Position numbers and translations under genes: made by a program
Notes under the pieces: generated by a model
What the model was told of the DNA's origin: nothing
The model's input: the letters and a program-made list of their open reading frames with translations, nothing else
Databases searched by the model: none
IMG/VR virus record: IMGVR_UViG_3300032236_000282
Location: 1 to 37,940 of that record
DNA length: 37,940 nt
Source of the DNA: a virus
Direction: 5' to 3' (one strand)
In this document: positions 17,924 to 37,940 of the stretch, piece after piece
How positions within the stretch are numbered: position 1 is the stretch's first letter
Layout of the letters: the number at the start of each line of letters is the position of its first letter

Positions 17924-18115
17924 TTATTCAGCGTCTTCTTCGTCGTCCTCGTCATCGAGGTCGTCAAACTCATCATCAAAGTCTTCATCATCTAGATCTT
18001 CAGATGCTTCTTCTTCATCTGCTGCAAGATCTTCAAAGGTATCTTCTGCAGGAGTCTCTTCTACAGGTGCGTCTACTACAGCGTCTTCTGCTGGAGTTGT
18101 TGTCTCGTCGGTCAT
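17924..18115 (-). CDS. Highly acidic small protein, also the C-terminal part of the HNH frame
   Basis: 63 residues starting MTDETTTPAEDAVVDAPVEE and ending in an almost pure Asp/Glu tail (DDLDDEDDEEDAE). The ATG at 18115 has AAAGGA six bases upstream, so it can be translated alone. The same frame is continuous with the HNH gene upstream, with no stop in between. Acidic proteins in head/neck regions may act as scaffold or as a counterpart to basic proteins; seven Lys-rich genes follow directly. The role is inference. Confidence 0.7.
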   Translation of the reverse strand: MTDETTTPAEDAVVDAPVEETPAEDTFEDLAADEEEASEDLDDEDFDDEFDDLDDEDDEEDAE

Positions 18116-18730
18116 TGCTGTCCTTTCTATACTAGTTGAGTTTTTGCGGAGGTTGCAGAGGGCGTGGGTTGGCCTTACATTCTCCAGGGTGTCTGGTCCA
18201 CCGCTAACTATAGGAACTACGTGGTCAATATGTAGGCCTAATTCCCACCCTTCTTTTCCTACTCTACGGGCAGCCTGCAGGTCGATTTGCTGATCGCACA
18301 GGTAACACACAGTCCCATATAAGTCTATTACTTGCGGTTCTGTGTAAGGAGTGTGCCCGTTCTTAAGTTTTAGTGCCCTACGCTTGCGAGAGGCAGCATT
18401 CATACGCTCTGGGTTGCTCTTGTTCCAAGATAGAGACGCTTCCCTAGTCTTTGTCCTGTTATTGTCCCTATATTTTTGATCGTACTTAGCACGTTGTCCA
18501 GGGTGTCTTTCTAAGTACCTAACATCCATAGACCTTTTCTTGTCAGGATGGGCCTTGTAGTACTTGCTTCTGTACTCGTTTCGTGCATCACGACACGGCT
18601 GGCATACTTCTGTTTTGTTCTTTACGTGGTGATTGTAACCGCCGTATGTTCCACAAAGTGGGATTTTATTCCTTGCCTTTTTAGTTGGCGTATTGCTGGA
18701 ATTGACTGTCGTTGACAAGTTCTTCTCCAT
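17924..18730 (-). CDS. HNH homing endonuclease in frame with the acidic protein
   Basis: The continuous frame is 268 residues; the first 205 are the nuclease. The N-terminus has a CGTYGGYNHH...CQPC zinc-knuckle pattern, a basic linker rich in Tyr, Arg and Asn (residues 45-125), then CYLCDQQIDL and the catalytic HNH core HIDHVVPIVSGGPDTLENVR, THALCNLRK near residues 168-192. All key His/Asn residues are present. This layout is typical of free-standing phage homing endonucleases. It overlaps the upstream neck-like gene by 50 bases and lacks its own stop. Alternative: a normal HNH packaging nuclease, less likely given position away from terminase. Confidence 0.85.
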   Translation of the reverse strand: MEKNLSTTVNSSNTPTKKARNKIPLCGTYGGYNHHVKNKTEVCQPCRDARNEYRSKYYKAHPDKKRSMDVRYLERHPGQRAKYDQKYRDNNRTKTREASLSWNKSNPERMNAASRKRRALKLKNGHTPYTEPQVIDLYGTVCYLCDQQIDLQAARRVGKEGWELGLHIDHVVPIVSGGPDTLENVRPTHALCNLRKNSTSIERTAMTDETTTPAEDAVVDAPVEETPAEDTFEDLAADEEEASEDLDDEDFDDEFDDLDDEDDEEDAE

Positions 18731-19250: not shown

Positions 19251-19946
19251 CTATTCTCCTGTGTAGTTGGTCCAGAAGAGGTTGTAGTACTCAATGTCAA
19301 AGTTAAAGCGCTTCATGTGTTGGGCGATTGCTCCCGTGTGTGCGTGTACGGGTATGCCTGCCTCTTTAGCCTTACGGAAGAAGACGATGTCTTCGCTCAC
19401 GTATTCTCGCCCTAGTCCTTCTTTCTCAGCAAAGAGAGACTCACCAGGGAATTGCTCACGCATCTTTTCTACAACAGATCGGTGCATGAGTACGAGGCCA
19501 AATCCTGCACAATCTACCTTGATCACTTCGTTGTCAGGAAGTGGGTGTATGTGCTGGATGGTGTGCTCATCAACGTCATTAAAGATAACAGGAAGCGGAT
19601 ACTTGAGAGTGCCCTCATCTTGCTTTGACACGAAGTAGATACCAGAGACGATAGGGCGGATGACGGGGTTGGCTGCCTCCCACAACTTGGCCAAGATGTC
19701 AGAGGTCAAGACGACATCGCTATCGACCCAGAGAATCCAATCGGTCTGTAGTTGGTCATACCATCCGTCAATCAAGACCTGACGCTGACGACCAATCTGG
19801 TTGCCATGTACTCGGACGCCGTGAGTAATATTGATGCCCAACTTAGGGGCTTCAAGAACGGTGTACAGCAAGCCCTGAGTGAATTTGCCATCAGTAGTTC
19901 CGCCATCGCACCATCCGATAGTCAGTGTGTCCTTCTTAGATGCCAT
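19251..19946 (-). CDS. GT-A fold glycosyltransferase
   Basis: 231 residues. After an N-terminal strand TLTIGWCDGGTTDGKFTQGL come GNQIGRQRQVLIDGWYDQLQ and DWILWVDSDVVLTSDILAKL, which holds the metal-binding DxD motif in its usual place (VDSDV near residue 75). The later block VIKVDCAGFGLVLMHRSVVE and EDIVFFRKAKEAGIPVHAHT fits GT2-like acceptor-side motifs, with a His for metal binding. It probably transfers a sugar to a phage component or host glycan. ATG overlaps the upstream stop (TAATG). It lies right after the fibre locus. Confidence 0.85.
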   Translation of the reverse strand: MASKKDTLTIGWCDGGTTDGKFTQGLLYTVLEAPKLGINITHGVRVHGNQIGRQRQVLIDGWYDQLQTDWILWVDSDVVLTSDILAKLWEAANPVIRPIVSGIYFVSKQDEGTLKYPLPVIFNDVDEHTIQHIHPLPDNEVIKVDCAGFGLVLMHRSVVEKMREQFPGESLFAEKEGLGREYVSEDIVFFRKAKEAGIPVHAHTGAIAQHMKRFNFDIEYYNLFWTNYTGE

Positions 19947-20805: not shown

Positions 20806-20988
20806 TTACTCAGGTGTAGCAGGCTGCTCAAAAGTAGTTCCGTCCCAACCCAAGCCAATGTGTGCTGGGTTTTCATGGGTGTACTCTACGCAGGTAAGGC
20901 CAGTGGCCGCTTCTGCTGTCTCTAGTGTTTCTGCAACAATGATATTTACTACTTTGTTGTCAGCGCTCAATGCGGCGTAAGTTGCCAT
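20806..20988 (-). CDS. Short fibre-accessory protein (WDGT family)
   Basis: 60 residues from ATG 20988 (MATYAALSADNKVVNIIVAE), with AGGAAA upstream and TAATG overlap with the preceding gene. Two halves: a strand pair A...DNKVVNIIVA and a C-terminal IGLGWDGTTFEQPATPE. The same layout is found in the products at 24877 and, shortened, 20988-21155. Similar short proteins lie next to fibre genes in many phages, function unknown; chaperone or capping role is a guess. Confidence 0.72.
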   Translation of the reverse strand: MATYAALSADNKVVNIIVAETLETAEAATGLTCVEYTHENPAHIGLGWDGTTFEQPATPE

Positions 20989-21155
20989 TAGTTTCCTTTC
21001 CAAGTACTGCCTATTTGAACTAGGCCATCGTCTAATGTTAGTTCGATTAACTTTTTTCCTGGGTTATCTGATTGTGCTTCTTCAAAAGAATCTGCCAACC
21101 ATCCATCTACTATGATACCCCCTTCTATTACTGCAAACATCTTAGTAATAGACAT
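20988..21155 (-). CDS. Short fibre-accessory protein, shortened WDG family member
   Basis: 55 residues from ATG 21155 (MSITKMFAVIEGGIIVDGWL), supported by AGGAG six bases upstream; a second ATG at 21140 is possible. The first 14 bases overlap the end of the glycine-rich gene. The N-terminal FAVIEGGIIVDGW strand and the end VQIGSTWKGN resemble the family at 20806 and 24877, but the tail after the W.G is missing. The middle SFEEAQSDNPGKKLIELT is different. Function unknown. Confidence 0.65.
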   Translation of the reverse strand: MSITKMFAVIEGGIIVDGWLADSFEEAQSDNPGKKLIELTLDDGLVQIGSTWKGN

Positions 21156-21789
21156 ACACAACTCCTGGAGAACCTGCCACGCCGCTTGCGCCTTGACCAG
21201 CCTGTGGTGATCCAAGGCCTCCTGATCCACCAACACCGTAGTTACCTGAATAGTCAGGAAAGTTTACAGTCGAACCGATGGCTGTGCCATTGCCAACAAC
21301 GTTTGCAGTTCCAGCGTTACCTGAGCCTAGTCCTGGCATACCAAGAGTGTTAGAACCTGGAGTTCCGCCGTTTCCTCCGTTGTTTACTGTTCCTCCACCA
21401 AGTCCTCCGTTACCGCCTCCAGCAGTAATTGGTCCCACAGAACTAGTTCCTCCAGTACCACCTGTATTTCCAGTAGCAACAACGTTAACAGCACCACCAG
21501 GAGTTCCTGCGGAGCCACCAGCACCGACTGTTACTGTTTTAGGAGGAAGGGTAACTCCAAAACTAATCCCACCAGTACCTCCACCACCTCCAGCACCACC
21601 AAGTGCTGTGCTGTTATTGGTTCCAGTCCCCCCACCTCCACCGCCTCCACCGCCACCGTAGACGACTACAAGTGCTTGTGAGGTTCCTGTGGGGTAGGTA
21701 ATAGAAGTAGTTGTGTTGGTGTAGGTAGCCTTTAAAGAAAGGTTAAATAAAGATGCGCTAGATGAAGCAGGAAATACTGAAAATCCCAT
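21142..21789 (-). CDS. Glycine-rich adhesin-like protein, YVYY subtype
   Basis: 215 residues, about a third or more Gly, ATG with GAGGAG upstream. N-terminal module LFNLSLKATYTNTTTSITYP and SQALVVVYGGGG leads to Gly-rich loops separated by short strands (GISFGVTLPPKTVTVGAGGS). It closes with SGVAGSPGVVYVYY. The layout of strand pairs between poly-Gly runs is like glycine-rich tail-tip adhesins (T2/S16 gp38-type poly-Gly II bundles). Paralogue of the gene at 21802. The variable loops may contact the receptor. Confidence 0.78.
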   Translation of the reverse strand: MGFSVFPASSSASLFNLSLKATYTNTTTSITYPTGTSQALVVVYGGGGGGGGGGTGTNNSTALGGAGGGGGTGGISFGVTLPPKTVTVGAGGSAGTPGGAVNVVATGNTGGTGGTSSVGPITAGGGNGGLGGGTVNNGGNGGTPGSNTLGMPGLGSGNAGTANVVGNGTAIGSTVNFPDYSGNYGVGGSGGLGSPQAGQGASGVAGSPGVVYVYY

Positions 21790-21801
21790 TATGAACTCCT
21801 C

Positions 21802-22425
21802 TTAGTAATAAACATAGACGACTCCCGCAGTACCTGCGTTTCCGCCTCCACCAGGACCTGAAGCAGTTCCATTAGGGAAGTAACCAAGTCCGCCACCGCC
21901 ACCATTTCCTACCAAGCCATAGTTTCCTGGATAGTCAGGATTTACAGAAATGATGGCTGTACCTACGCTATTAAAGCCGTTTCCTGGAGTTCCTGCTGTT
22001 CCCGCAGATCCTCCACCGCCACCAGCGTTAGTGCTAGAAGGTCCTCCACCGTTACCACCGTTACCACCATTTACAAACATATAACCGAACTGTGTGGTTC
22101 CACCAACTCCTCCAGCGCCACCGCCACCTGCAGGACCCCCACCGTTGCCAGCAGCACCAGCAGCACCTACTGTTACGGTTGTTGCGGGGAAGGCTAACCC
22201 AAAGAATGTCCCGCCAACGCCGCCGCTTGCGCCACCACCACCGTTGTAGTTGTAACCGCCACCACCGCCACCGCCACCACCGCCACCACCGTATGCAGCA
22301 ACATAAACAAACTTAGTTCCTGCAGGGTAGGTGACACCTGTTGTGGTGTTAGTGTAGGTGGCCTTCAACGATACTGAAGGTAAAGTAGTTCCTCCACCAG
22401 TTGCGGGGAATACTGATTGACCCAC
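21802..22425 (-). CDS. Glycine-rich adhesin-like protein, YVYY subtype
   Basis: 207 residues, GTG start overlapping the upstream TAG (TAGTG). N-terminus (MGQSVFPATGGGT, VSLKATYTNTTTGVTYPAGT) and C-terminus (AGTAGVVYVYY) match the gene at 21142, whereas the Gly-rich loops between them differ. Poly-Gly blocks GGGGGGGGGGG near residue 50 are in frame with CCACCG-type simple repeats on the other strand. The paired genes look like a duplication with divergent loops. Likely a fibre tip or accessory adhesin. Confidence 0.78.
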   Translation of the reverse strand: MGQSVFPATGGGTTLPSVSLKATYTNTTTGVTYPAGTKFVYVAAYGGGGGGGGGGGGYNYNGGGGASGGVGGTFFGLAFPATTVTVGAAGAAGNGGGPAGGGGAGGVGGTTQFGYMFVNGGNGGNGGGPSSTNAGGGGGSAGTAGTPGNGFNSVGTAIISVNPDYPGNYGLVGNGGGGGLGYFPNGTASGPGGGGNAGTAGVVYVYY

Positions 22426-23228
22426 TAGACGATCTCCACTCCTGATACATGGAAGTTAACTGTGCTAGAAGACGCAGAACCTGTAATAAATTTGACTGGG
22501 TTGTTTGCAGGAATTACTTGCTTTAGGTCGAAGAATGCTGAAGAGTTTGCTGCCAATGCTGTGCTTGTTAAGATTGACTGACCGTCAATGTTGAGAGAAA
22601 AAGTAGCAGCAGATGAAGCAAGATTTGTTGCTACGATGTTAGTAATAATGGTAGAGGTGCTTGTTGTAGGGACTGAGTAAAGAGCAGGAAGTTTGCCCCA
22701 TGAACCCTGAGTAACCGCTGTTGTTGCAGAGGTCTGTGTAGAGACTAAGTATGAGAAGAGAGTAGTTGAAGGCACAGCAACTACTTGTGCAAACTTTGTA
22801 TCGTAGATGGTATCGCCAATAGTTACAGCGATAAAGTCACCGACAACCAAGCCGTGTGCCGAAGAAGAAGTCAAAGTCGCCACGTAGTTCTGAACTACCT
22901 TGTTAGAGACGGTATAACCAACAGTCATAGGCTGGTTAAAAGTGGCAATTCCTACAGGAGTTACTGCTGCTGATGCAACAGAGGTTGTTGTAGAAACAAA
23001 TGTAAATGTAGATGTGGTAGGAATTGAGTGAATGCTGTAAGTACCGTCAAAGGTAGAGTCAACACCCTGGATCGTGACTTGAGTTCCTACCTGCGTAATA
23101 CCGTGGGCGGCGTTTGTTGTAATGGTAGCGAGATTGGTAGTAATCGCCTTGTTAGAGATGTAAGCCTTGACAGGGGCAGTACCAAAGATAGGAGTTCCTC
23201 TGTAAAGTGTTTTTGCTGTAACTGCCAT
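22425..23228 (-). CDS. Fibre protein with tandem beta domains and Ig-like C-terminus
   Basis: 267 residues, ATG overlapping the upstream stop (TAATG). Residues about 25-95 and 105-175 are two copies of one module: SNKAITTNLATITTNAAHGI with GTQVTIQGVDSTFDGTYSIH, and SNKVVQNYVATLTSSSAHGL with GDFIAVTIGDTIYDTKFAQV. Residues about 185-267 (TIITNIVATNLASSAATFSL, then VNFHVSGVEIV) resemble the whole proteins at 26867 and 27774. It appears to be a modular virion appendage protein built from locus-wide parts. No enzyme motif. Confidence 0.75.
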   Translation of the reverse strand: MAVTAKTLYRGTPIFGTAPVKAYISNKAITTNLATITTNAAHGITQVGTQVTIQGVDSTFDGTYSIHSIPTTSTFTFVSTTTSVASAAVTPVGIATFNQPMTVGYTVSNKVVQNYVATLTSSSAHGLVVGDFIAVTIGDTIYDTKFAQVVAVPSTTLFSYLVSTQTSATTAVTQGSWGKLPALYSVPTTSTSTIITNIVATNLASSAATFSLNIDGQSILTSTALAANSSAFFDLKQVIPANNPVKFITGSASSSTVNFHVSGVEIV

Positions 23229-23467
23229 TATTTCGCTCCCATAACGTCGAGGATTGTGATGTCATCGCCCCAACGAACACCTGCTGTGGTGGTCGAATCA
23301 GCAACAATAGTCTGGTAGTTTGCGCCAACGGCTACGTTAGTGATAGCGGCTGATGCGGTTCCAACAATAATATCACCCTTGGCGGTGATGTTGGTAGGTC
23401 TAACCAAGGAAATATCAGCACCTGCGTAGGTATCCCACGAGGATCCGTTCCATCTTTTAACTGACAT
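23228..23467 (-). CDS. Short fibre-module protein
   Basis: 79 residues starting MSVKRWNGSSWDTYAGADIS, the same WNGSSW opening used near the N-terminus of the two large fibres, then TNITAKGDIIVGTASAAITN, a common fibre-stalk motif, and ending VRWGDDITILDVMGAK. It is like a fibre reduced to attachment and end motifs. The hydrophobic ..LDVMGA end is shared with products at 3403, 27236 and 28179. Confidence 0.72.
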   Translation of the reverse strand: MSVKRWNGSSWDTYAGADISLVRPTNITAKGDIIVGTASAAITNVAVGANYQTIVADSTTTAGVRWGDDITILDVMGAK

Positions 23468-23504
23468 GTGTGTATTCTCTCAAACTACTAGTTGTAATTC
23501 TTTA

Positions 23505-24356
23505 TTAACCAATTACTACAATGACAACACCAGAACCACCAGCACCACTGCTATAAGCACCGTTGCCGTGTGCCCCTCCACCACTACCTGTGTACGCAGT
23601 TCCAGAACCTCCAACAGTTGTGGAACCTCCTTGCTGTGCAGTGCCTCCGATTCCAGAACCTCCAGCACCTCCAGCACCGCTACCCAAGCCTGCTCCACCA
23701 CCACCGCCCGCATAAGTTACGGACGAACCAGTAATTGAGTTTGCAAGCCCTGCACCTCCTGGGCCAGGAACGCTTGCTCCAGGAGAAGTTCCTACACCAC
23801 CTGCGCCACCACCACCCGCTCCTGTGTAACCGTTTCCCGATCCGCCATTGTTACCTAGTCCTGTTATTCCAGGGCCACCTGGTTGCCCGTTTGCTGCTGA
23901 GGTAGTTCCGCCTCCTCCGCCAGAGCCTCCAACACCGCCTGGCATTACAGCGCCATATACTGTACCTCCACCGCCTCCTGGAGCAAACACTGTAGTTCCA
24001 ATAGAACTTGTTGTTCCTGGGCTTCCTGCAAATTGAACTGCTCCAGCACCACCAGCACCTACTGTTACAGTTAGTGTTCCCGAAGGAAGGAACTGTGTAG
24101 CGTTGTAATACATGCCTCCAGCACCACCGCCACCACAGGGACCCGAAGTAGTGCCACCTCCTCCCCCACTGCCACCGCCACCGACCACTAATACTTCTGC
24201 ATAACCAGCAGTTCCTACAGTGATTGAACCAGAGCCTTGAAACTTGTAGATAGTCTTACCCGCACGGGTAGATGAGTCGATAGTTGGTGAGCCAGTGGTA
24301 GCCGTAACAGTGGCCTTACCAACTCCGCCAAGTGAAATGGGGCTAAATAGTGGCAT
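23505..24356 (-). CDS. Glycine-rich adhesin-like protein, VVIVVIG subtype
   Basis: 283 residues, ATG with AAAGGAT upstream. Conserved N-terminal module GKATVTATTGSPTIDSSTRA, then AGYAEVLVVGGGGSGGGGG, a fixed YYNATQFLPSGTLTVTVGAG block near residue 85, a LANSITGSSVTYAGGGGG block near residue 210 and the end GSGVVIVVIG. Between these are variable Gly loops. The two genes at 25141 and 26004 have the same frame of fixed blocks. Matches the general build of glycine-rich phage adhesins. Confidence 0.82.
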   Translation of the reverse strand: MPLFSPISLGGVGKATVTATTGSPTIDSSTRAGKTIYKFQGSGSITVGTAGYAEVLVVGGGGSGGGGGTTSGPCGGGGAGGMYYNATQFLPSGTLTVTVGAGGAGAVQFAGSPGTTSSIGTTVFAPGGGGGTVYGAVMPGGVGGSGGGGGTTSAANGQPGGPGITGLGNNGGSGNGYTGAGGGGAGGVGTSPGASVPGPGGAGLANSITGSSVTYAGGGGGAGLGSGAGGAGGSGIGGTAQQGGSTTVGGSGTAYTGSGGGAHGNGAYSSGAGGSGVVIVVIG

Positions 24357-24365
24357 CGTTATCCT

Positions 24366-24866
24366 TTACGAATACTTGACTGGACCAGCACCGTATACCG
24401 TATAGGTAGGTGAGGAAGAAGTCTTGACAATGGTGAATGAATACGCATCTGAAGCAGAGAGGTTACCTGCTGCTGGAGCAGTTCCGCCTGACCACTTCAT
24501 CGTTACTGTAGAGGTGCTTCCATCTACCTGTACTGCAGAAATGTAGTAAGCGCTTGTGGCGCCGTTAGTCATCATGAATGAACCTGTCCATGCATCATTG
24601 ACATTCAAAGAAGATGCAAGGGTGGCAGATGAGTTACCACGGAAATTCAACGTCACGTTTGCCGTGGTTGTTCCTGTAGAGATATAAACGCCCTGAGTCA
24701 ACAAGTCATAGTTAGTTGTTGCTGTAGGAACTGCAGTTGTTACTGTTGTCAGTTCCTTAGGAGCAACAAGTTCAAGACCAGAGACAGACGTAGTGGCAGA
24801 CCCTAACGTCAGGGTGGATGAGCCTAGGGTCGTTGTACCGTAAGCGTTAGTGCGTGCCTTTGTCAT
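24366..24866 (-). CDS. Beta-rich fibre-associated protein
   Basis: 166 residues, ATG with AAAGGA upstream. It begins MTKARTNAYGTTTLGSSTLT and includes ELTTVTTAVPTATTNYDLLT and AWTGSFMMTNGATSAYYISA, closing YTVYGAGPVKYS. Ser/Thr-rich with regular strands, no Cys, no signal peptide. It resembles domains on phage fibres (the VQVDG...VTMKWSGG strand pair) and sits between a glycine-rich gene and a small accessory gene. A structural virion role is inferred from context. Confidence 0.65.
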   Translation of the reverse strand: MTKARTNAYGTTTLGSSTLTLGSATTSVSGLELVAPKELTTVTTAVPTATTNYDLLTQGVYISTGTTTANVTLNFRGNSSATLASSLNVNDAWTGSFMMTNGATSAYYISAVQVDGSTSTVTMKWSGGTAPAAGNLSASDAYSFTIVKTSSSPTYTVYGAGPVKYS

Positions 24867-24876
24867 TTAAGTTCCT

Positions 24877-25122
24877 TTACTCTGCTGGGGTTACTGCAGG
24901 TGATACGAAGTTAGTTCCATCCCAAATGTCGCCTGCTCCTGCGTACTTGCCACGGAAGTTAGCGTTGTAAGAGGTCTGTACCCACTCGCCACCAAAAAGA
25001 TCTGCACAGAACGCAGCGCCAATCGCTTCTCCGTCTGTACCTTCTGCGTTGCCAATAACTTCGTTATTGACGACGATTACCTGACGGACGATGCCGTCTT
25101 CTACTTTAGCAAAATGTGCCAT
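24877..25122 (-). CDS. Short fibre-accessory protein (WDGT family, full length)
   Basis: 81 residues, ATG with AAAAGGA upstream. MAHFAKVEDGIVRQVIVVNN is the standard opening of a small family that, by recall, is common next to phage fibre genes. Then AFCADLFGGEWVQTSYNANF and AGDIWDGTNFVSP follow. It comes right after the glycine-rich gene at 25141 (18-base gap). The two relatives at 20806 and 20988 also follow a glycine-rich gene, so a link to adhesin assembly is likely but unproven. Confidence 0.78.
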   Translation of the reverse strand: MAHFAKVEDGIVRQVIVVNNEVIGNAEGTDGEAIGAAFCADLFGGEWVQTSYNANFRGKYAGAGDIWDGTNFVSPAVTPAE

Positions 25123-25140
25123 TATTTTTCCTTTTCTCGT

Positions 25141-26001
25141 TTAACCGATTACGATAATTACTACGCCTGAACCGCCATTACCTCCAGCATGAGTACCATC
25201 TCCAGTGCCACCACCACCACCGCCTAAGTTTGTGGTTCCAACAGACCCTCCCGAATAACTTCCACCACCACCGCCACCAGTTCCACCAGTGCCTTGAACA
25301 GCGTAGTTTCCAGCAGCGCCACCGCCACCAGCATAAGTTACTGATGCACCTGTAATCGAGTTGGCGAGCCCGTTTCCACCGTTACCTGCGTTTGTTCCTG
25401 AGTAGTTTGAACCAGCAGTTCCAGCACCTCCACCGCCACCGCCAACAGATGCAGGAGTTTGCCAGGCCCCAACTCCCCCTGCGTTTCCTAATCCAGAAAT
25501 TACTGCTGCACCTCCTGGGGCATCTGCGTTACCGCCACCACCGCCACCAGAACCTCCAGCCATTCCTGGACTGTGTCCAGTTGCAGCGTTAAGGCCACCT
25601 GCGCCACCACCGCCACCTGGCGAAAACACAGAGGCTCCAATACCGCTAAAACCGCCATTACTTCCAAAAAAGTAACCGCTAACTGCACCGCCACCGCCAC
25701 CGCCACCGACTGTGACTGTTAGTGCTCCTGAAGGAAGAAATTGAGTAGCGTTGTAGTACATTCCACCGCCACCGCCACCGCCATAGCCAGAACCGCCACC
25801 ACCGCCACCACCAACTACTAGTACTTCAGCAAAACCAGGAGTAGCAACGGTAATAGAACCGCTACCTGTAAACTTGTAAATTGTCTTACCTGCACGAGTT
25901 GCAGAATCAATAGTTGGAGAACCTGTAGTTGCGGAGACAGTCGCCTGTGTTGTTGGGGCGTATGTTGCCTTCCAACTGTTAGACATCTTTGAGATAGCCA
26001 T
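25141..26001 (-). CDS. Glycine-rich adhesin-like protein, VVIVVIG subtype
   Basis: 286 residues. Shares the N-terminal TTGSPTIDSATRAGKTIYKF, GFAEVLVVGGGGGGG, YYNATQFLPSGALTVTVGGG, LANSITGASVTYAGGGG and the C-terminal GSGVVIIVIG with its two paralogues. The N-terminus (MAISKMSNSWKATYAPTT) is different. The loop regions vary in length and in Tyr, Asn, Ser and Trp content, as expected for receptor-contact loops. Preceded directly by the paralogue at 26004 (2-base gap), a tandem pair. Confidence 0.82.
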   Translation of the reverse strand: MAISKMSNSWKATYAPTTQATVSATTGSPTIDSATRAGKTIYKFTGSGSITVATPGFAEVLVVGGGGGGGSGYGGGGGGGMYYNATQFLPSGALTVTVGGGGGGGAVSGYFFGSNGGFSGIGASVFSPGGGGGAGGLNAATGHSPGMAGGSGGGGGGNADAPGGAAVISGLGNAGGVGAWQTPASVGGGGGGAGTAGSNYSGTNAGNGGNGLANSITGASVTYAGGGGAAGNYAVQGTGGTGGGGGGSYSGGSVGTTNLGGGGGGTGDGTHAGGNGGSGVVIIVIG

Positions 26002-26003
26002 AG

Positions 26004-26867
26004 TTATCCAATCACCACAATAGCAACACCTGATCCACCAGAACCACCAGCAAATTGGATCGTGTTAGTGACCGTGAATCCACCGCCACCGCCACCGCCA
26101 CCAAGGTTTGTAGCACCAGTTCCACCGTTGCCGTTGTATGCGCCACCAGCACCACTGGAATTACCAGTGCCACCAGTTCCACCATTTCCAGAGTTTCCTC
26201 CTGCGCCACCACCACCACCACCAGCATAGGTAACCGAAGTTCCTGTGATGGAGTTTGCAAGACCGTTTCCGCCGTTACCACCAGCACCAGCAGTAGAGTT
26301 ACCTCCAACAGAACCAGCACCACCGCCTCCAGCAGCCATCAAGTTTGCGATAGCACTTCCACCAGCGTTTCCTTGAGATAAGTAGGAAGCACCGCCTGCG
26401 GAGTAATACTGGCCTCCACCTCCTGAACCTCCAGGACGACCAATACTGGCGTAGTTTGGATGTGCTCCTGCTCCTCCACCTAATGCAATGATGTTTCCAA
26501 TAGCGGAAGGGTCTCCTGAATACGGTACAGGACCAGCGTTTCCTGAAGGTCCTCCTGCTCCCCCAGCACCGATAGTTACTGTTAAAGTACCTGAAGGAAG
26601 AAATTGAGTAGCATTGTAGTAATAGCCACCACCGCCACCGCCACCGCCTGCATTTCCAGAACCTGTACTGCCTGCTCCACCGCCACCTCCACCAATGATA
26701 AGGATTTCAGCATATCCAGCCTGCCCCACAGTTATGGAACCACTACCGTTAAAGGTGTAGATAGTCTTTCCAGCACGAGTAGACGAGTCAATGGTAGGTG
26801 AACCCGTTGTGGCTGTTACTGTCGCTTTGCCAATCTGCTTAGCGCCAGTGAATGCGGAGACTGACAC
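26004..26867 (-). CDS. Glycine-rich adhesin-like protein, VVIVVIG subtype
   Basis: 287 residues, GTG start overlapping the upstream TAG. It starts MSVSAFTGAKQIGKATVTAT and has the fixed blocks TTGSPTIDSSTRAGKTIYTF, YYNATQFLPSGTLTVTIGAG, LANSITGTSVTYAGGGGG and GGSGVAIVVIG. The central loop (LGGGAGAHPNYASIGRPGG, YYSAGGASYLSQGNAGG) is unlike that of its paralogues. First of the five glycine-rich genes in transcription order. Confidence 0.82.
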   Translation of the reverse strand: MSVSAFTGAKQIGKATVTATTGSPTIDSSTRAGKTIYTFNGSGSITVGQAGYAEILIIGGGGGGAGSTGSGNAGGGGGGGGYYYNATQFLPSGTLTVTIGAGGAGGPSGNAGPVPYSGDPSAIGNIIALGGGAGAHPNYASIGRPGGSGGGGQYYSAGGASYLSQGNAGGSAIANLMAAGGGGAGSVGGNSTAGAGGNGGNGLANSITGTSVTYAGGGGGGAGGNSGNGGTGGTGNSSGAGGAYNGNGGTGATNLGGGGGGGGFTVTNTIQFAGGSGGSGVAIVVIG

Positions 26868-27232
26868 TATGCAATCTCGCTTCCAAATGCAGTGAAGGTA
26901 AGAGTGGAGGTCGATGCGTAGACAGTGATCTGATCTGTTGCACCCAAAGAAATTCCAAGAGTCAGAGCGATTGAGTCGTTACCTGAAAGAGGTACGTCGT
27001 AAGCGATGTACTGATGGTTAGCAAGTGTTGCACCTGCTGGACGAATTGCAATGCGGTATGTAGCACCAGTAGCAGTTGTGTTTGCTACGGTTAATGTGGA
27101 GAGAACAGTCTGAGTTGCTGCTGGTACTGTGTAAAGGTTAGTTGCAGTCGTAGCGGTAAGAGTAGCAGCACCGTTTCCGTAGTTACCTGAAGAACCAGTC
27201 TGTGCTAATACCTTGTATGTTGTTGTTGCCAT
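26867..27232 (-). CDS. Small Ig-like fibre-module protein
   Basis: 121 residues starting MATTTYKVLAQTGSSGNYGN. A single beta-sandwich is suggested by TVPAATQTVLSTLTVANTTA, ATYRIAIRPAGATL and the end TSTLTFTAFGSEIA. The gene at 27774 has the same order of motifs (SVVSTVAIANTTSSAATATV and LTFHAFGSQIA) and so is a paralogue. Probably a decoration or adaptor subunit of the fibre. ATG clear; stop overlaps the next GTG. Confidence 0.72.
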   Translation of the reverse strand: MATTTYKVLAQTGSSGNYGNGAATLTATTATNLYTVPAATQTVLSTLTVANTTATGATYRIAIRPAGATLANHQYIAYDVPLSGNDSIALTLGISLGATDQITVYASTSTLTFTAFGSEIA

Positions 27233-27235
27233 TTA

Positions 27236-27772
27236 TTACGCTCCCATCAAGAAGAAACCAGTAAAGCCTGTAGCAGGTGCTGCGGCCCATGTTGCAGTTG
27301 AACCATTACTTGTCAAAAGTGTTCCAGAGGCACCAATGCCAAGACGAGTTACTGTAGAGGAACCTGATCCAACGATCAGATCTCCTGCCGTTGTTACTGT
27401 ACTCAATGGAACGGTTCCAGATACTGTACTACTTTGGAAACTTTGTACCTGTACAACGTCTCCTGCGACAAGTGCAGTAAGACCTGTAATAGAAGATCCG
27501 TTTGAGGCAGTGTAGTCTACGCCTCCACCAATAAGTTTAGCACCGTTGAGAAACACTGCTTCAGTTCCCACGGTGTACGTAGCGGTAACCGAGGTTTCTC
27601 CGCCAGAAGCGGTGAACGTGGTGAGGTTCAGAGTAGGAACTGATCCTGAACTGTTATCGATCCACAAATCTCCAGTTACGGGGTATGCAGGAGTAGTGTT
27701 TCCTACATAGACACGGCTACCAACAGCACCGTCTGTGACGATGTGTGTGCCAACGGGATTATTCTGGGCCAT
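27236..27772 (-). CDS. Short fibre protein with end motif FFLMGA
   Basis: 178 residues. N-terminal MAQNNPVGTHIVTDGAVGSR and TGDLWIDNSSGSVPTLNL are fibre-attachment-like. A middle domain (VFLNGAKLIGGGVDYTASNG, AGDVVQVQSFQSSTVSG) is a standard small beta domain of phage fibres, followed by TTAGDLIVGSGSSTVTRLGI and the terminal ASGTLLTSNGSTATWAAAP...FFLMGA. The end matches other products of this phage. Complete mini-fibre. Confidence 0.75.
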   Translation of the reverse strand: MAQNNPVGTHIVTDGAVGSRVYVGNTTPAYPVTGDLWIDNSSGSVPTLNLTTFTASGGETSVTATYTVGTEAVFLNGAKLIGGGVDYTASNGSSITGLTALVAGDVVQVQSFQSSTVSGTVPLSTVTTAGDLIVGSGSSTVTRLGIGASGTLLTSNGSTATWAAAPATGFTGFFLMGA

Positions 27773-28178: not shown

Positions 28179-31100
28179 CTACATTCCTGCAAGCATCATG
28201 ACCTGTGGAAGAGGATCTGTGGCGACAGCCGCCCAAGACACGTTAGTTCCATCAGTGGTGAGATACTTGCCTGAGTTAGAGGTTTGGGTAGGCAAGATTG
28301 CGTTGGCCGCACCCGCCTGCGTGGTTGCGCCCGTACCACCGTAAGAGAGACCGATAGCGGTACCATTCCATACGCCTGTCGCAATTGTACCTACTGCGGT
28401 AAGTGACGAGGTGACAATTGAGGTGTTGAGAGCGGTTCCTGTCAAAGATGAGGCGGCTGCTGTGACAGTGATCGAGGCTGATCCATCAAATGCTGTTCCG
28501 TTGATATTGACTGAGGAAGCCAACTTGGTAGCGGTAGAGGCGTTTCCTGTCAGTGCTCCCACAAATGTTGTGGATGTTACTGAAGAAAGACCCGCAATGG
28601 TCGTGGCCGCTGCTCCTAGGGCGATATCTGTGCTACCTACTGTGACCTTAGAGTTAGTAAGGCTAGAGTTGCCAATATTTGACAAGGTATTTGACGAACC
28701 AGAGATTGTCTTGTTAGTCAGTGTCTGGGCGGTGCTGATGTCAGCGATATCGCCAGCAGTTGTTCCACCGATTGTCTTGCCCAAGACCTGCGTAGCAGAG
28801 AGGACGGTCGTTCCAGCCAACTTGTAAGTCTTGCCAGAGGCAAGGTCAAAGTTTTCAGACGATGTCCACGAGGTGGTTGATGATACCCAGTTGATGGTCT
28901 TGTCGGTTGCACCCTTGAGGGTGATACCTCCACCGTTTGCGGTGGTATCTGTTGGGCTGGTGACTGAGCCGAGTTCAATATTCTTGTCAGAGACAGTGAC
29001 TGTGGTCGAGTTGATCGTCTCAGTGGTTCCGTTGACAGTGAGGTTACCTGTAACTACAAGGGCGCCACCAACGTTGACATCACCTGTTGTGGTTAGGTTA
29101 GCAAGTGTTCCTACGCTGGTGAGAGATGATGTTACGACTGAAGAGTTGAGAGTTGTACCTGTCAGAGTTCCTGCAGCAGCCGTGACGGTGATCGCAGCGG
29201 AACCATCAAAGTTCACGCCGTTGATCGCACGAGGTGTGGCTAATGTCGTTGCTGTAGATGCATTACCAGTCAATCCACCAACGAAGGTGGTTGATGTGAC
29301 AGAGGTTAATCCAGCAAGCGTGGTTGCACTAGCACCGAGGCTGATATCGGTTGTACCGACAGTTACCTTGGAGTTATTGAGTGCTGAGTTAGGAATGCTG
29401 GTCAGAGCAGCACCAGAACCAGAGAATCCTGTAGCAGAGAGGACACCTGTTGATGGGACGTAGGTCAACTTAGAAGACGATGTCTTGATAACAGCGTTTC
29501 CTGTATTGACGCCCGACAAGGTGAGGTAGGTAGCCGACGTGGTTGTGGTATCGTCAGTAATTGCTACCTTAGAAGCATTTGTTGCGTTGGTAGCGTTGGT
29601 TGCTGTGTCAGCGTTACCAGCAAGAGCAGCGGTAATGATGTTTGCAGTGAAATTACCTGATGCATCACGAGCAACGATAGCGTTGGCTGTGTTTGCCTGA
29701 GTTGCTGTGGTGGCTGAGTTTGCTACCTTGCCAGCAGTTGTAATCTGGTTCAGTTTGCTATCTGTAATAGAGCCAGCAAGCATCGTGTTGGTAACTGTGC
29801 CAGTGTCTGTGGTATAGACACCGTTTGTTACAGTAGAGGCGTTTCCAGAAACGTTTCCTGTGAGGTTACCTGAAAATGTAGTTGCTGTTACGGAAGAAAG
29901 TCCTGCAAGGCTGGTAGTTGTTCCGCCAAGCGATACGCTAGAAGATCCAATAGTTACTGACGAGTTGGCAAGTTGTGAGTTAGAAACTCCACCAGATTTG
30001 ATGCTAACCGCACCAGATGATACTGAGAATGAGCCAGAGTCAAATGAGGCAACACCAAGGGTCGATGTTGAAGCCAGAGTCTGTGTGGATGTTGTAACTC
30101 CTGTTACACGACCATAAGCGTCTGTGGTAACGGCAACAACACGAGATGGCTGAGCACTTGTAGATGTATCTGTACGAGTGACTGTAGCAAGGTCGATGTT
30201 ATCTGCGTTGACAACAATGCGGGATGAGTCAGCAGCATTGATGTCAAAGGTCAGACCAGTAAGGGTAAGGCCAGCACCTGCAACGTAAGATGCAGCGCCG
30301 TTGAACTGGTTGAATGTTACGCTGTCTGTACCAATCTTGATGGCGCCAGCAGGAGTTGTTGCAGTTCCTGTTCCAGTAATAACCCAAGATGTACCAATGT
30401 TGGTAGAGCCAGATAAAACAGATACATAAGCGTTAGGGCGAAGTTCTCCCGCAATGGAGTTGTCTGCGTCTGAGGTACGGGTAAGAACCCATGCTTGGTT
30501 ACCGTTATGTCCAACTGTAGTTACGACATAGATACCGTTTTGAGATGCAGTTGCTTGGTTCTTAACCAAGATACGCTGCCCAGAAGTTACGGTTACACCA
30601 TCAACTACAAGAGGAGCGTTTGAACCCGCAGTAAGGGTTGCTCCTACACCAAGGCCCTGAGATTGGTCTGCAGTTCCATTAGCGTAGGTTGGGGTATTCG
30701 GAAGGATTGCTGCAGTGGCAAGATTTACTGCTTGCTTAATAGATAGACCTGAAGAAAGAGCATCGACATAAGCCTTATTTGCCGCATCCTTAGAGCCAAC
30801 TGGGGTTGCAAGGTTGGTGATGCGGTAGTTATTCCAGTCAACGTCTGCTACTGGAGCAGTGAACTGATCTAACGTGTAACCAAGGACCGTTGTCTGGAAA
30901 TCAGAAATCTTGCTATGGGTAAGCGATGGGATATCTGAGGAGGTGAGAGATAAACGTGCTGATGGTACAGTTCCACTGGAAAGGTTAGAGGCATTCAGAG
31001 CAGTAATGCCAGAACCGCTACCAGTAAAGTAACCAGCAGTTGTCGTGATATTTCCTGGAATAGAAATCGTGTTAGGTACGTCTACGGTTGTGCCTGTTGA

Positions 31101-32531
31101 ATTTACAAGGATTGCTCCGTTGCTTCCAACAACCTCAACAGAACCAATTGGCTGTACTGAGTAGTTGACGTTGGTAGGCTTGACGTTGGTAAGAACTCCA
31201 GCACCATCGACATACAAGACATCGTTGTAATGCCAAGACGAGGTGTTTACTCCGTGAAGTTGGCCGATGACAACTACTTCACCAGTACCACCAGATAAAA
31301 TATCTGCAGCAACAACACCTGCACCAGGCATCTTGGCTGGGTCAGAAACCTCGGCTTTAGCGATTGTGGCATAGCCTGTTCCTGAGTCAACACCTGTGAG
31401 GTATACAGGTGAGCCCTTAGCAATGGTTGAGCCAGTGTTGTTGATACCGTAAAACGAAAGATTACCAATATTGGTACCAACGAATGTTGTAGCAATAATC
31501 TTTCCAGAAGCATCTACGGAAGCAAGAGTTGTTCCTGCGGAGTTCTTCCATTCGGTGAGGTCTGCAGTTTGACCTGAGTGGCCCTTAATTGTTGCAGCAA
31601 CGGTAGAAGAAGTTGCAGCAGTAATGGAGGCGCTAGAACCTGTAATTCCATTGGCGCTAAGTGCTCCACCAAGAGTTACATCTCCAACGAGGTTAGAAGT
31701 TCCATCTACCTTGAAAGCGTTGTTAACTTCAAGTTGGGTCTCATCCCATTGACCGACTTTGTCAGTAATCTGGAATCCTCCAGCAGCAAAGACGATAGCC
31801 TTTCCACCAGTTCCTGCGTTAAGGTTAAGGTTTCCGCCTTCAACAATTAAGTAGCCGTCATTGGCACCTTGGAGGTTGTAGTCAGGGTAATCATAACCAC
31901 TTGATGCAATACCTAAGTCAATATAATGGGTTGTATCTGTACCGTTGTCAGCAGTAATGACCAGGTCAGCAGATGCTTCAGCACCATCACTCTGGTTTTG
32001 AAGGCCTACTTGTGTGTATGCATTGACATTGTTGGTAAAGAACGCCATTGGGTCGGTAAGTACAAGGTCAGTTGCAGCACCAAAGTAAGCAGTTCCACCA
32101 GCATGGATATTCTTTGCAACGCCAATACCGCCTTCTACAACCAAGGCTCCAGCAGTAACGCTATTAGAGTCTGTAGTTGAAGAGACTACGGTATCTGTAT
32201 CAAAAGTTTTGTTAGATAGAGTTTGTGTAGCACCATTAAAGGTAACATAATTTCCATCTACGGCTAACTTGCCGTCGTTGGCGACATAAAGGCCACCAGA
32301 AGTCTCAAGTTTATTAGCAACGGCGTTAAACGCACGATTGTTTGTAAAGTAAAGGTTAGTAGAGCCCTCAGTCAACGAGTCTGTAGAGGGGACTGAGTCA
32401 ACCCACGAAGATCCATTGTAAAGACGTATCTTGTGAGAAGTCGTATTGTAATACGTGTCGCCAGCAGAATGGCCCGTAGGATCGCTTGATAAGGACGCTA
32501 GTCCTATCGGAACGAGAAACTTACGGGCCAT
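28179..32531 (-). CDS. Large tail fibre protein (1450 aa)
   Basis: Starts MARKFLVPIGLASLSSDPTG with GDTYYNTTSHKIRLYNGSSW, the attachment module shared with the 812-aa fibre. AGGAG lies nine bases upstream of the ATG. Residues about 350-480 (FYGINNTGSTIAKGSPVYLT, VVVIGQLHGVNTSSWHYNDV) form a stalk domain known from phage fibres. Residues about 580-730 hold the LVKNQATASQNGIYVVT block. Residues about 840-1380 contain three related Ser/Thr-rich repeats. It ends SGKYLTTDGTNVSWAA...VMMLAGM. No chaperone-type autocleavage motif is visible. Low-complexity, extended and likely trimeric. Confidence 0.88.
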   Translation of the reverse strand: MARKFLVPIGLASLSSDPTGHSAGDTYYNTTSHKIRLYNGSSWVDSVPSTDSLTEGSTNLYFTNNRAFNAVANKLETSGGLYVANDGKLAVDGNYVTFNGATQTLSNKTFDTDTVVSSTTDSNSVTAGALVVEGGIGVAKNIHAGGTAYFGAATDLVLTDPMAFFTNNVNAYTQVGLQNQSDGAEASADLVITADNGTDTTHYIDLGIASSGYDYPDYNLQGANDGYLIVEGGNLNLNAGTGGKAIVFAAGGFQITDKVGQWDETQLEVNNAFKVDGTSNLVGDVTLGGALSANGITGSSASITAATSSTVAATIKGHSGQTADLTEWKNSAGTTLASVDASGKIIATTFVGTNIGNLSFYGINNTGSTIAKGSPVYLTGVDSGTGYATIAKAEVSDPAKMPGAGVVAADILSGGTGEVVVIGQLHGVNTSSWHYNDVLYVDGAGVLTNVKPTNVNYSVQPIGSVEVVGSNGAILVNSTGTTVDVPNTISIPGNITTTAGYFTGSGSGITALNASNLSSGTVPSARLSLTSSDIPSLTHSKISDFQTTVLGYTLDQFTAPVADVDWNNYRITNLATPVGSKDAANKAYVDALSSGLSIKQAVNLATAAILPNTPTYANGTADQSQGLGVGATLTAGSNAPLVVDGVTVTSGQRILVKNQATASQNGIYVVTTVGHNGNQAWVLTRTSDADNSIAGELRPNAYVSVLSGSTNIGTSWVITGTGTATTPAGAIKIGTDSVTFNQFNGAASYVAGAGLTLTGLTFDINAADSSRIVVNADNIDLATVTRTDTSTSAQPSRVVAVTTDAYGRVTGVTTSTQTLASTSTLGVASFDSGSFSVSSGAVSIKSGGVSNSQLANSSVTIGSSSVSLGGTTTSLAGLSSVTATTFSGNLTGNVSGNASTVTNGVYTTDTGTVTNTMLAGSITDSKLNQITTAGKVANSATTATQANTANAIVARDASGNFTANIITAALAGNADTATNATNATNASKVAITDDTTTTSATYLTLSGVNTGNAVIKTSSSKLTYVPSTGVLSATGFSGSGAALTSIPNSALNNSKVTVGTTDISLGASATTLAGLTSVTSTTFVGGLTGNASTATTLATPRAINGVNFDGSAAITVTAAAGTLTGTTLNSSVVTSSLTSVGTLANLTTTGDVNVGGALVVTGNLTVNGTTETINSTTVTVSDKNIELGSVTSPTDTTANGGGITLKGATDKTINWVSSTTSWTSSENFDLASGKTYKLAGTTVLSATQVLGKTIGGTTAGDIADISTAQTLTNKTISGSSNTLSNIGNSSLTNSKVTVGSTDIALGAAATTIAGLSSVTSTTFVGALTGNASTATKLASSVNINGTAFDGSASITVTAAASSLTGTALNTSIVTSSLTAVGTIATGVWNGTAIGLSYGGTGATTQAGAANAILPTQTSNSGKYLTTDGTNVSWAAVATDPLPQVMMLAGM
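28385..29990 (-). repeat. Three diverged repeats in the 1450-aa fibre
   Basis: The blocks near 28385-28690, 29100-29400 and 29815-29990 encode related series: NSKVTVG.TDI.LGA.AT.(L/I)AGL.SVTSTTFVG.LTGNASTAT, with the first two continuing into NG..FDGSA.ITVTAAA..LTGT.LN. The third is shorter and more diverged. At DNA level they share only short runs, so the duplication is old. Confidence 0.65.
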
Positions 32532-35029: not shown

Positions 35030-35371
35030 TTAAGATAAGTAGGCTTTTCCTGAAAAGGCTGCTGAAAAGGTAGCGATTATGGTGTTCCGAGTGGTATAGG
35101 CGATTTCGCCTTCGACGATTGTACCGCCTGAGTCCTGAATTGTGACGTTAGGATAGAAATTAAGATTGTGATGAATAGTCCAGGTGCTTGATGCACTGCC
35201 CTGATTGTGAACGTAAGAGACGGCTTGAGAACCGCCTCCGTTTCCTCCAGGAGCGTATCCTGGAATGTAGATGATGTCTTCAACAACATCACCTGGTGCT
35301 GGTTGAAAGATCTGGATAACATTTCCAGAGTTTCCCCCAGTTGATTGTCCTGGACGAACGTACTGCGTCAT
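35030..35371 (-). CDS. Small fibre-domain protein (HNLNxYP domain)
   Basis: 113 residues; the ATG overlaps the upstream stop (ATGA). The N-terminus is Gly/Pro/Gln-rich (VRPGQSTGGNSGNVIQIFQP). The last 60 residues are the common phage fibre/tail domain: SSTWTIHHNLNFYPNVTIQD, SGGTIVEGEIAYTTRNTIIA and FSAAFSGKAYLS. Probably an anchoring or adaptor piece for the two large fibres downstream. Confidence 0.78.
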   Translation of the reverse strand: MTQYVRPGQSTGGNSGNVIQIFQPAPGDVVEDIIYIPGYAPGGNGGGSQAVSYVHNQGSASSTWTIHHNLNFYPNVTIQDSGGTIVEGEIAYTTRNTIIATFSAAFSGKAYLS

Positions 35372-37007: not shown

Positions 37008-37940
37008 TTAAGCGGTGTAAACCTTTACAATTGCCTGATCGGTGATGACACCGAGACCCCAGATTGCGTACCATGCAAGAGCGTGCTCACGACCGAAGTC
37101 GAGAACGCCACCGTCACGGAGTTCAACTGGAAGAGAGATAGCATGTCCGAAAGCGTTGTCACCAATCATGATTGATTCGTAAACATCAGTTGCGGTTGTG
37201 CCTGAAGGAGCAGATGTGCCACCTTCTGGGTTTCCACCCTGACCAGGACCAGTGTTAGCCTTTACAGGAACATCAGTCTGGTAGGAAGGAGCACCGATTG
37301 AAGAAGAGTAGTCAACTGATGTACCAGATGCGATCTTCTTAACCTGTGTTGTTTCGATGAAGACGACGTCATAGAGACGGCCGATCTCACCGAGCATGAA
37401 GTTACCTGGAGCAGCGTACTTTGTAACTTCAATGAACTCTGGGTTCGAGCGAAGGTCACGAGACTGCTTTGGGTGAACGAACTGGACGTAGGTCTCGCCC
37501 AAACGAGGAATGTTCTTACCAGCAAGGGTAAGAGCAGCATCCTTGATTGCACCAGTGGTCAACTTGTGAGCAGCGGTGAGAGAAGCGATTGATGTTGCGG
37601 CTGTACCTTCATCATAGTTGGTGAAAGCGCCACCTGAGATGCCTGAACGGTCGTAACCGAAGACAGCAGATGTAGCAGCAGAGAGTGTGTTACGAGCCTG
37701 GACGTAGAGGTACTGTGCCATGTGGCGACCAAGAAGACGTGAAGCAGATGCCATAACATCATCGAATGATGCGTTAAGGAGGAGTTCAGAAACTGCTACT
37801 GCGTAGCCGTGTTCTGCAACTGTGATTGCAATCTGCTCTGCTGTGAGAGCGTTTGTTGTCATACGGACACCTTCTGTAAGAGGTGTAGCATCGACAGCAA
37901 AGTTCTTGTAACGGAGGAAGTTCACACGAAGACCTGGTGC
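37008..37940 (-). CDS. Major capsid protein, N4-gp56 family (5' end cut by window edge)
   Basis: The frame is open to the right edge (APGLRVNFLRYKNFAVDATP), so the GTG at 37925 is not the true start. Typical N4-gp56 motifs are present: ATPLTEGVRMTTNALTAEQI, HGYAVAVSELLLNASFDDVM, RNTLSAATSAVFGY, YVQFVHPKQSRDLRSNPEFI, GEIGRLYDVVFIETTQV and DNAFGHAISLP. The visible part is 310 codons, near the complete family length of about 320-400. It forms the HK97-fold shell. Followed by a stable hairpin. Confidence 0.93.
   Translation of the reverse strand, partial: APGLRVNFLRYKNFAVDATPLTEGVRMTTNALTAEQIAITVAEHGYAVAVSELLLNASFDDVMASASRLLGRHMAQYLYVQARNTLSAATSAVFGYDRSGISGGAFTNYDEGTAATSIASLTAAHKLTTGAIKDAALTLAGKNIPRLGETYVQFVHPKQSRDLRSNPEFIEVTKYAAPGNFMLGEIGRLYDVVFIETTQVKKIASGTSVDYSSSIGAPSYQTDVPVKANTGPGQGGNPEGGTSAPSGTTATDVYESIMIGDNAFGHAISLPVELRDGGVLDFGREHALAWYAIWGLGVITDQAIVKVYTA

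Follow-up and report, generated by a model that had tools for sequence, protein, structure and literature searches.

Why should one phage encode five glycine-rich, adhesin-like proteins side by side in a single locus? The locus lies in a 37,940-base virus fragment (IMG/VR record IMGVR_UViG_3300032236_000282), referred to here as the window, whose main genes are carried on the minus strand. An earlier note on this DNA had measured the five genes against the single gp38 adhesin of T-even phages and had suggested either several tip variants displayed together or a store for recombination. The explanation that we consider probable is a host-recognition island with five tips docked by their N-termini, probably co-displayed and assisted by small proteins.

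The phage and its array

The genes of the array and the main structural genes around it are listed below in the order of the minus strand.

37008-37925, minus strand: major capsid protein
32579 and 28179, minus strand: large structural proteins, before the array in gene order
26867..27232, minus strand: g121, directly upstream of GLY5 with a 1-nt overlap (phrog_1276; d267 profile match)
26004..26867, minus strand: GLY5, Gly-rich adhesin, IG subtype, 287 aa, N-terminus MSVSAFTGAKQIGKA (PF21722, E 2e-15)
25141..26001, minus strand: GLY4, Gly-rich adhesin, IG subtype, 286 aa, N-terminus MAISKMSNSWKATYAPTT (PF21722, E 5e-17)
24877..25122, minus strand: g81, small protein of the family found directly 3' of Gly-rich genes (phrog_7759, E 1e-20)
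24366..24866, minus strand: g166, fibre protein with the C-terminal domain d166 (phrog_5906), candidate tip socket for GLY3
23505..24356, minus strand: GLY3, Gly-rich adhesin, IG subtype, 283 aa, d166 plug MPLFSPISLGGVGKA (PF21722, E 2e-14)
23228..23467, minus strand: g79, small structural-type protein of unknown function between GLY3 and g267 (phrog_33513, phrog_32934)
22425..23228, minus strand: g267, ending in domain d267, which precedes VFPA-type adhesins; candidate partner of GLY2 and GLY1
21802..22425, minus strand: GLY2, Gly-rich adhesin, YY subtype, 207 aa, N-terminus MGQSVFPA (phrog_863, E 2e-5)
21142..21789, minus strand: GLY1, Gly-rich adhesin, YY subtype, 215 aa, N-terminus MGFSVFPA (phrog_863, E 1e-10)
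20988..21140, minus strand: g82, 50 aa, directly after GLY1, found by sequence inspection with its start chosen by eye; probably of the g81/g65 family, a weak assignment
20806..20988, minus strand: g65, 60 aa, small family (phrog_14370, E 4e-13; joins the g81 family in an iterated profile)
After the array, minus strand: glycosyltransferase, endonuclease VII-like protein, sheath (13693), tube (13025), tape/peptidase (9460) and baseplate genes

The five Gly-rich genes lie at the positions that had been described, and all are intact ORFs of the minus strand, with 32-37% glycine. The array forms a single operon with intergenic gaps between -1 and 37 nt, and four genes inside it are not Gly-rich (24877, 24366, 23228 and 22425). 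Promoters and terminators inside the array were not above chance and no inverted repeats of the invertase type were found; a single 18-nt inverted pair (2 mismatches, separated by 6 kb) was taken as chance and not as an invertible element.

The capsid protein is 57-59% identical to those of Streptomyces phages such as BRock, and 31 of its 43 matching records were from Streptomyces phages, with no T4-like phages in the tallies. By this protein the phage is nearest to BRock and is not T-even-like, and an actinobacterial host is plausible. Relatives of the capsid protein are encoded in hundreds of IMG/VR stretches; the DNA search found no close relatives among phage records. A tblastn search of phage records with the adhesins gave none either, although low-complexity filtering possibly hides Gly-rich sequence.

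Some other features of the region deserve mention. The glycosyltransferase (19251-19946; phrog_34859, E 6e-107) adjoins the array, and fibres or the host surface are its possible targets. The endonuclease VII/HNH-like protein (17924-18730) matches with its N-terminal residues 15-62 a PHROG labelled WhiB-like regulator (E 5e-10). The C-terminal ends of three fibre-type proteins (23228-23467, 27236-27772 and 28179-32531) are alike, short and hydrophobic (DVMGAK, FFLMGA, MMLAGM), and may form another connector.

Fold, divergence and exchange of the adhesins

The products of 26004, 25141 and 23505 passed the PF21722 cut-off, while those of 21802 and 21142 remained below it and matched phrog_863. 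An AF2 model of the 26004 protein, from a 20-sequence alignment, was confident (pLDDT 86, pTM 0.86); that of 21142 was weak (pLDDT 67). Foldseek searches of the PDB with the first model retrieved the Bxb1 tail tip (9D93, E 1.5e-4) and the fibre of Pam3 (7YFW and 7YPX, E 4.6e-4), with probabilities of 0.99-1.00, followed at low probability by the glycine-rich domains of ALK/LTK. The weak 21142 model reached the same targets, Pam3 fibre and Bxb1 tail tip, among its six matches. TM-scores to the solved structures were low (0.3-0.5), so that these are matches of fold family and not close superpositions. The Gly-rich protein of the Bxb1 structure, which we take to be gp33, has 267 aa and 30% glycine. 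Furthermore, 228 viral models matched at E<=0.001, the best ones being named Glycine-rich domain-containing proteins. By sequence, a profile of the YY set, which also took in IG and RY members, matched Pam3 gp24 (E 9e-10), a value to be read with caution because both are Gly-rich.

In Pam3 the Gly-rich domain lies at the distal end of the virion fibre, the tip of which is variable (PMC9608196), and in a Klebsiella phage (TFP_Y; PMC12671077) the mutations that restore infection map to the Gly-rich domain of its gp24-like fibre. Fold, family and this published work on the same fold bear out the description of the five proteins as adhesin-like, and at the level of fold the 26004 model does resemble a Gly-rich bundle. 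The likeness to gp38 holds as an analogy only: S16 gp38 (6F45) was absent from the six matches of 21142 and from the 50 matches listed for 26004.

The same relatives bear on where the adhesins might sit. They could belong to head or neck (collar) fibres, as the position of the island between the capsid-side genes and the sheath might indicate, together with the large neighbouring proteins that match PHROGs labelled head decoration. Against this, the Pam3 and Bxb1 relatives sit on tails, and the region behind the baseplate genes showed no further fibre locus in those sister contigs that were inspected. We consider a head or neck location unlikely.

The five proteins had been taken as paralogues of one family with fixed blocks and two kinds of C-terminus. 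The two kinds of end are real (VVYVYY in two copies; VVIVVIG, VVIIVIG and VAIVVIG in the others). Within subtypes the copies are related beyond their glycine composition, with z = 17-19 among 26004, 25141 and 23505 and 12 between 21802 and 21142 over shuffles leaving each glycine in place; between subtypes, z was only 0.8-4.2 with such shuffles. In the adhesin tree, poorly supported on many branches, the three IG copies fell inside a supported clade of 12 with copies from sister phages and the two YY copies grouped together elsewhere. This weak similarity and the separation in the tree indicate two subfamilies, of three (26004, 25141, 23505) and two members (21802, 21142), instead of one family of five. 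Nor are the blocks fixed throughout: the first ~15-18 residues are of four types, and the conserved block starts after them.

Both subfamilies, and the duplications behind the five copies, are old judging by their divergence. Fourfold-degenerate sites within subtypes agree at 0.31-0.35 (0.35 expected by chance), and no block of clearly raised synonymous-site agreement was found among the window copies of each subtype. Recent gene conversion among these copies was rejected as a candidate on both grounds, and with synonymous sites saturated between copies recent recombination among them is not seen.

In the sister phages the array belongs to a hypervariable island between conserved genes near 35030 and 18681. 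At least two Gly-rich genes, and up to four, were found in 12 of 15 non-redundant contigs anchored on the 18681 gene and with a good part of the island visible, and two contigs (L097 and L100) have five each. Arrays of 2-5 Gly-rich genes are thus usual in these sister phages. This and the Streptomyces-phage type of the capsid make T-even phages the wrong yardstick for the number of adhesins. Many capsid-anchored relatives had no Gly-rich genes, and in L111, L113, L114 and L116 the island between the same anchors lacks one. Many relatives have the Gly-rich part as the C-terminal half of a protein of ~450 residues, and some sister or more distant contigs encode at least two tandem Gly-rich domains in one protein (L124 7211-9250; L105 12714-14375; L092 314-2947).

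Comparison of two sisters, L120 and L121, gave 94-98% identity beginning at the final adhesin codons and continuing beyond them, including an unchanged start of the small downstream gene, while the adhesins themselves were about half identical. Such a sharp edge at the end of the adhesin supports exchange of tip genes between sister phages. In another pair, L128 and L130, the differences were greatest in one patch (residues ~235-300) where the Gly-rich domain starts.

These data also bear on the proposal that a single copy is used at a time and the others are a recombination store for changing the host range. Conserved blocks do flank the variable loops, and the island is hypervariable among sisters. 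However, all five copies are intact in one operon, their N-termini differ, invertible repeats were not found, and synonymous sites within subtypes agree at chance level with no clearly raised block. An in-genome store is accordingly improbable, and this part of the earlier note is not supported. Different N-termini and upstream partners on intact, tightly packed genes of one operon favour the other possibility it had raised, that several variants are displayed together on different fibres, over competition for one dock or a silent store.

A family of small genes (24877, 20806 and probably 20988, the last added to the count by hand) was found directly 3' of 44 Gly-rich genes out of 93, in the same order as gp24-gp25 of Pam3, and after none of the 343 large ORFs of other kinds. 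By eye, the three had been suggested as homologues of gp25, but hhalign gave a probability of 2%, with gp25 ranking among shuffled sequences, and the small family had no relatives in the PDB. By their position, proteins of the 24877 family might be a tip assembly factor or a transient cap, of the kind suggested in Alteromonas phages (PMC10579305). The unchanged start of the small gene beside different adhesins argues against strictly adhesin-specific chaperones. The Gly-rich proteins themselves are very improbable assembly factors: 21142 and 21802 do match the 'tail fiber assembly' profile phrog_863, but their fold is that of fibre tips and the label misleads, since Pam3 gp24, a virion fibre, matches the same profile at 9e-18.

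Proposed N-terminal plugs and their upstream domains

The class of N-terminus goes with the domain encoded upstream. Adhesins starting with M(S)PLFSPVSAGGIGKA (class PLF) follow a gene bearing d166 in 10 of 10 cases. Of the eight that start with MxxSVFPA, five come directly after a d267 domain, and two of the remaining three (GLY1 and one in L100) have another VFPA adhesin before them. A d166 gene followed by an MPLx or MLGx neighbour was also found in the Synechococcus phage S-CAM22, the Roseobacter phages CRP-3 and CRP-738 and a podovirus, in which the neighbour is annotated as gp38; that of CRP-738 is not Gly-rich. For neighbours of this kind glycine content and N-termini were used, because HMMER --max missed proteins that are clearly Gly-rich, S-CAM22 gp195 for example, probably as an effect of its composition correction.

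As a test of this association, 80 loci were fetched by d166 alone, with no selection on the neighbour. The domain closed proteins of 145-964 aa, with a median of 4 residues between its end and their C-terminus. Counting related phages as independent, a plug motif (M, an optional residue, P and two hydrophobic residues) started 72 of 79 next genes (91%) and 42 of 593 other ORFs (7%); in the other loci, the numbers were 19 of 21 and 225 of 2768. The real test is the set of 80, since the second includes the loci where the pattern was first noticed, and the 7-8% background reflects how short the counted motif is. The conserved plug itself is longer, a ~20-residue 'M(S)PL(L/F)...GG..A.GFG' sequence at the N-terminus.

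Not all the proteins downstream of d166 were Gly-rich (42 of 75). The plug was also carried by LamG repeats, beta-propeller repeats, DUF7483 and a ~190-residue domain lacking a Pfam match, and plug residues of Gly-rich and other partners agreed at 23%, about three times the 7-9% at control positions. The ~190-residue protein, found after d166 in L161, L166, L190 and others, ends in FALYGIK; the Gly-rich adhesins of ~450 residues contain a similar motif, FSLYGL, in their N-terminal half. Docking best explains why the same start is found on unrelated bodies beside one and the same C-terminal domain. No relatives of d166 were found in the PDB, and no publication describing the pairing was found in the open-access literature, which is not proof of novelty.

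We infer that d166 is a fibre-tip socket for interchangeable plug-bearing adhesins. We lean towards a broader version in which d166 would be a general socket across unrelated phages (the group of the window, cyanophages, roseophages and a podovirus), accepting Gly-rich, LamG, beta-propeller or other adhesins through the ~20-residue plug, and the array of the window would be a multi-connector form of it. In the window, GLY3 has the d166 plug and lies 9 nt after g166, in what appears to be the order of a fibre-tip gene directly followed by a separate adhesin gene; the two look like members of a widespread 'socket and plug' tip-swapping scheme of environmental phages. GLY2 and GLY1 carry the VFPA plug downstream of gene 22425, and GLY5 and GLY4 have other N-termini. 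The tested d166 kind of pair is absent from GLY4, GLY5 and GLY1.

Under the explanation by co-displayed tips, the island of this uncultured myovirus, with a contractile tail, would encode five receptor-binding tip proteins for host recognition, each predicted to combine a short docking sequence at the N-terminus with a beta-sandwich and with a Gly-rich lattice whose loops would face the host. The docking sequence of GLY3 would plug into the C-terminal d166 of the fibre protein encoded just upstream, the other plug of GLY2 and GLY1 would pair with the d267 domain of gene 22425, and GLY5 and GLY4 would dock by their further N-termini. Probably all five would be produced together and shown side by side on several fibres of the same virion, and the small proteins related to 24877 may assist their assembly or cap the tips.

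The host-recognition proteins of uncultured phages are mostly unrecognised. If true, plug and socket domain would make it possible to pick out such proteins straight from metagenomes; among the first 600 stretches matched, 588 encode a d166 relative. The connector would also be separable from the receptor-binding part, helping to explain several tips per phage and tip exchange.

Comparison with known systems

Pam3 gp24 and its chaperone gp25 (7YFW/7YPX; PMC9608196) share with the array the TNF-like plus Gly-rich fold, phrog_863 and a small gene after the fibre gene. However, gp24 includes a helical shaft of its own at the N-terminus and is the sole fibre protein, whereas the adhesins of the array are short and several, and homology of the small genes to gp25 was not detected. 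Stand-alone Gly-rich tail-tip proteins are known from Bxb1 (9D93) and from Mysterious (gp31/gp32; PMC13252515), the latter with two adjacent Gly-rich genes, although both are siphoviruses of mycobacteria.

In S16 and T-even phages, gp38 (6F45; PMC6851490, PMC12892980) is likewise a separate Gly-rich adhesin that caps a fibre protein and has variable loops between Gly motifs, but it has a beta-helix core and an N-terminal helical bundle with tryptophans, and is present in one copy. CBA120 and other Ackermannviridae, with their branched sets of receptor-binding proteins (PMC11414711, PMC7506556), also show several such proteins on one virion, though these are enzymatic tailspikes joined through N-terminal domains and not Gly-rich tips. 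Finally, in the part of the work on metaviromic islands considered here (PMC3909814), the socket and plug pairing is not described, but the host-recognition region is hypervariable within a conserved genome, as in our sister phages, and the gene table includes gp38 adhesins.
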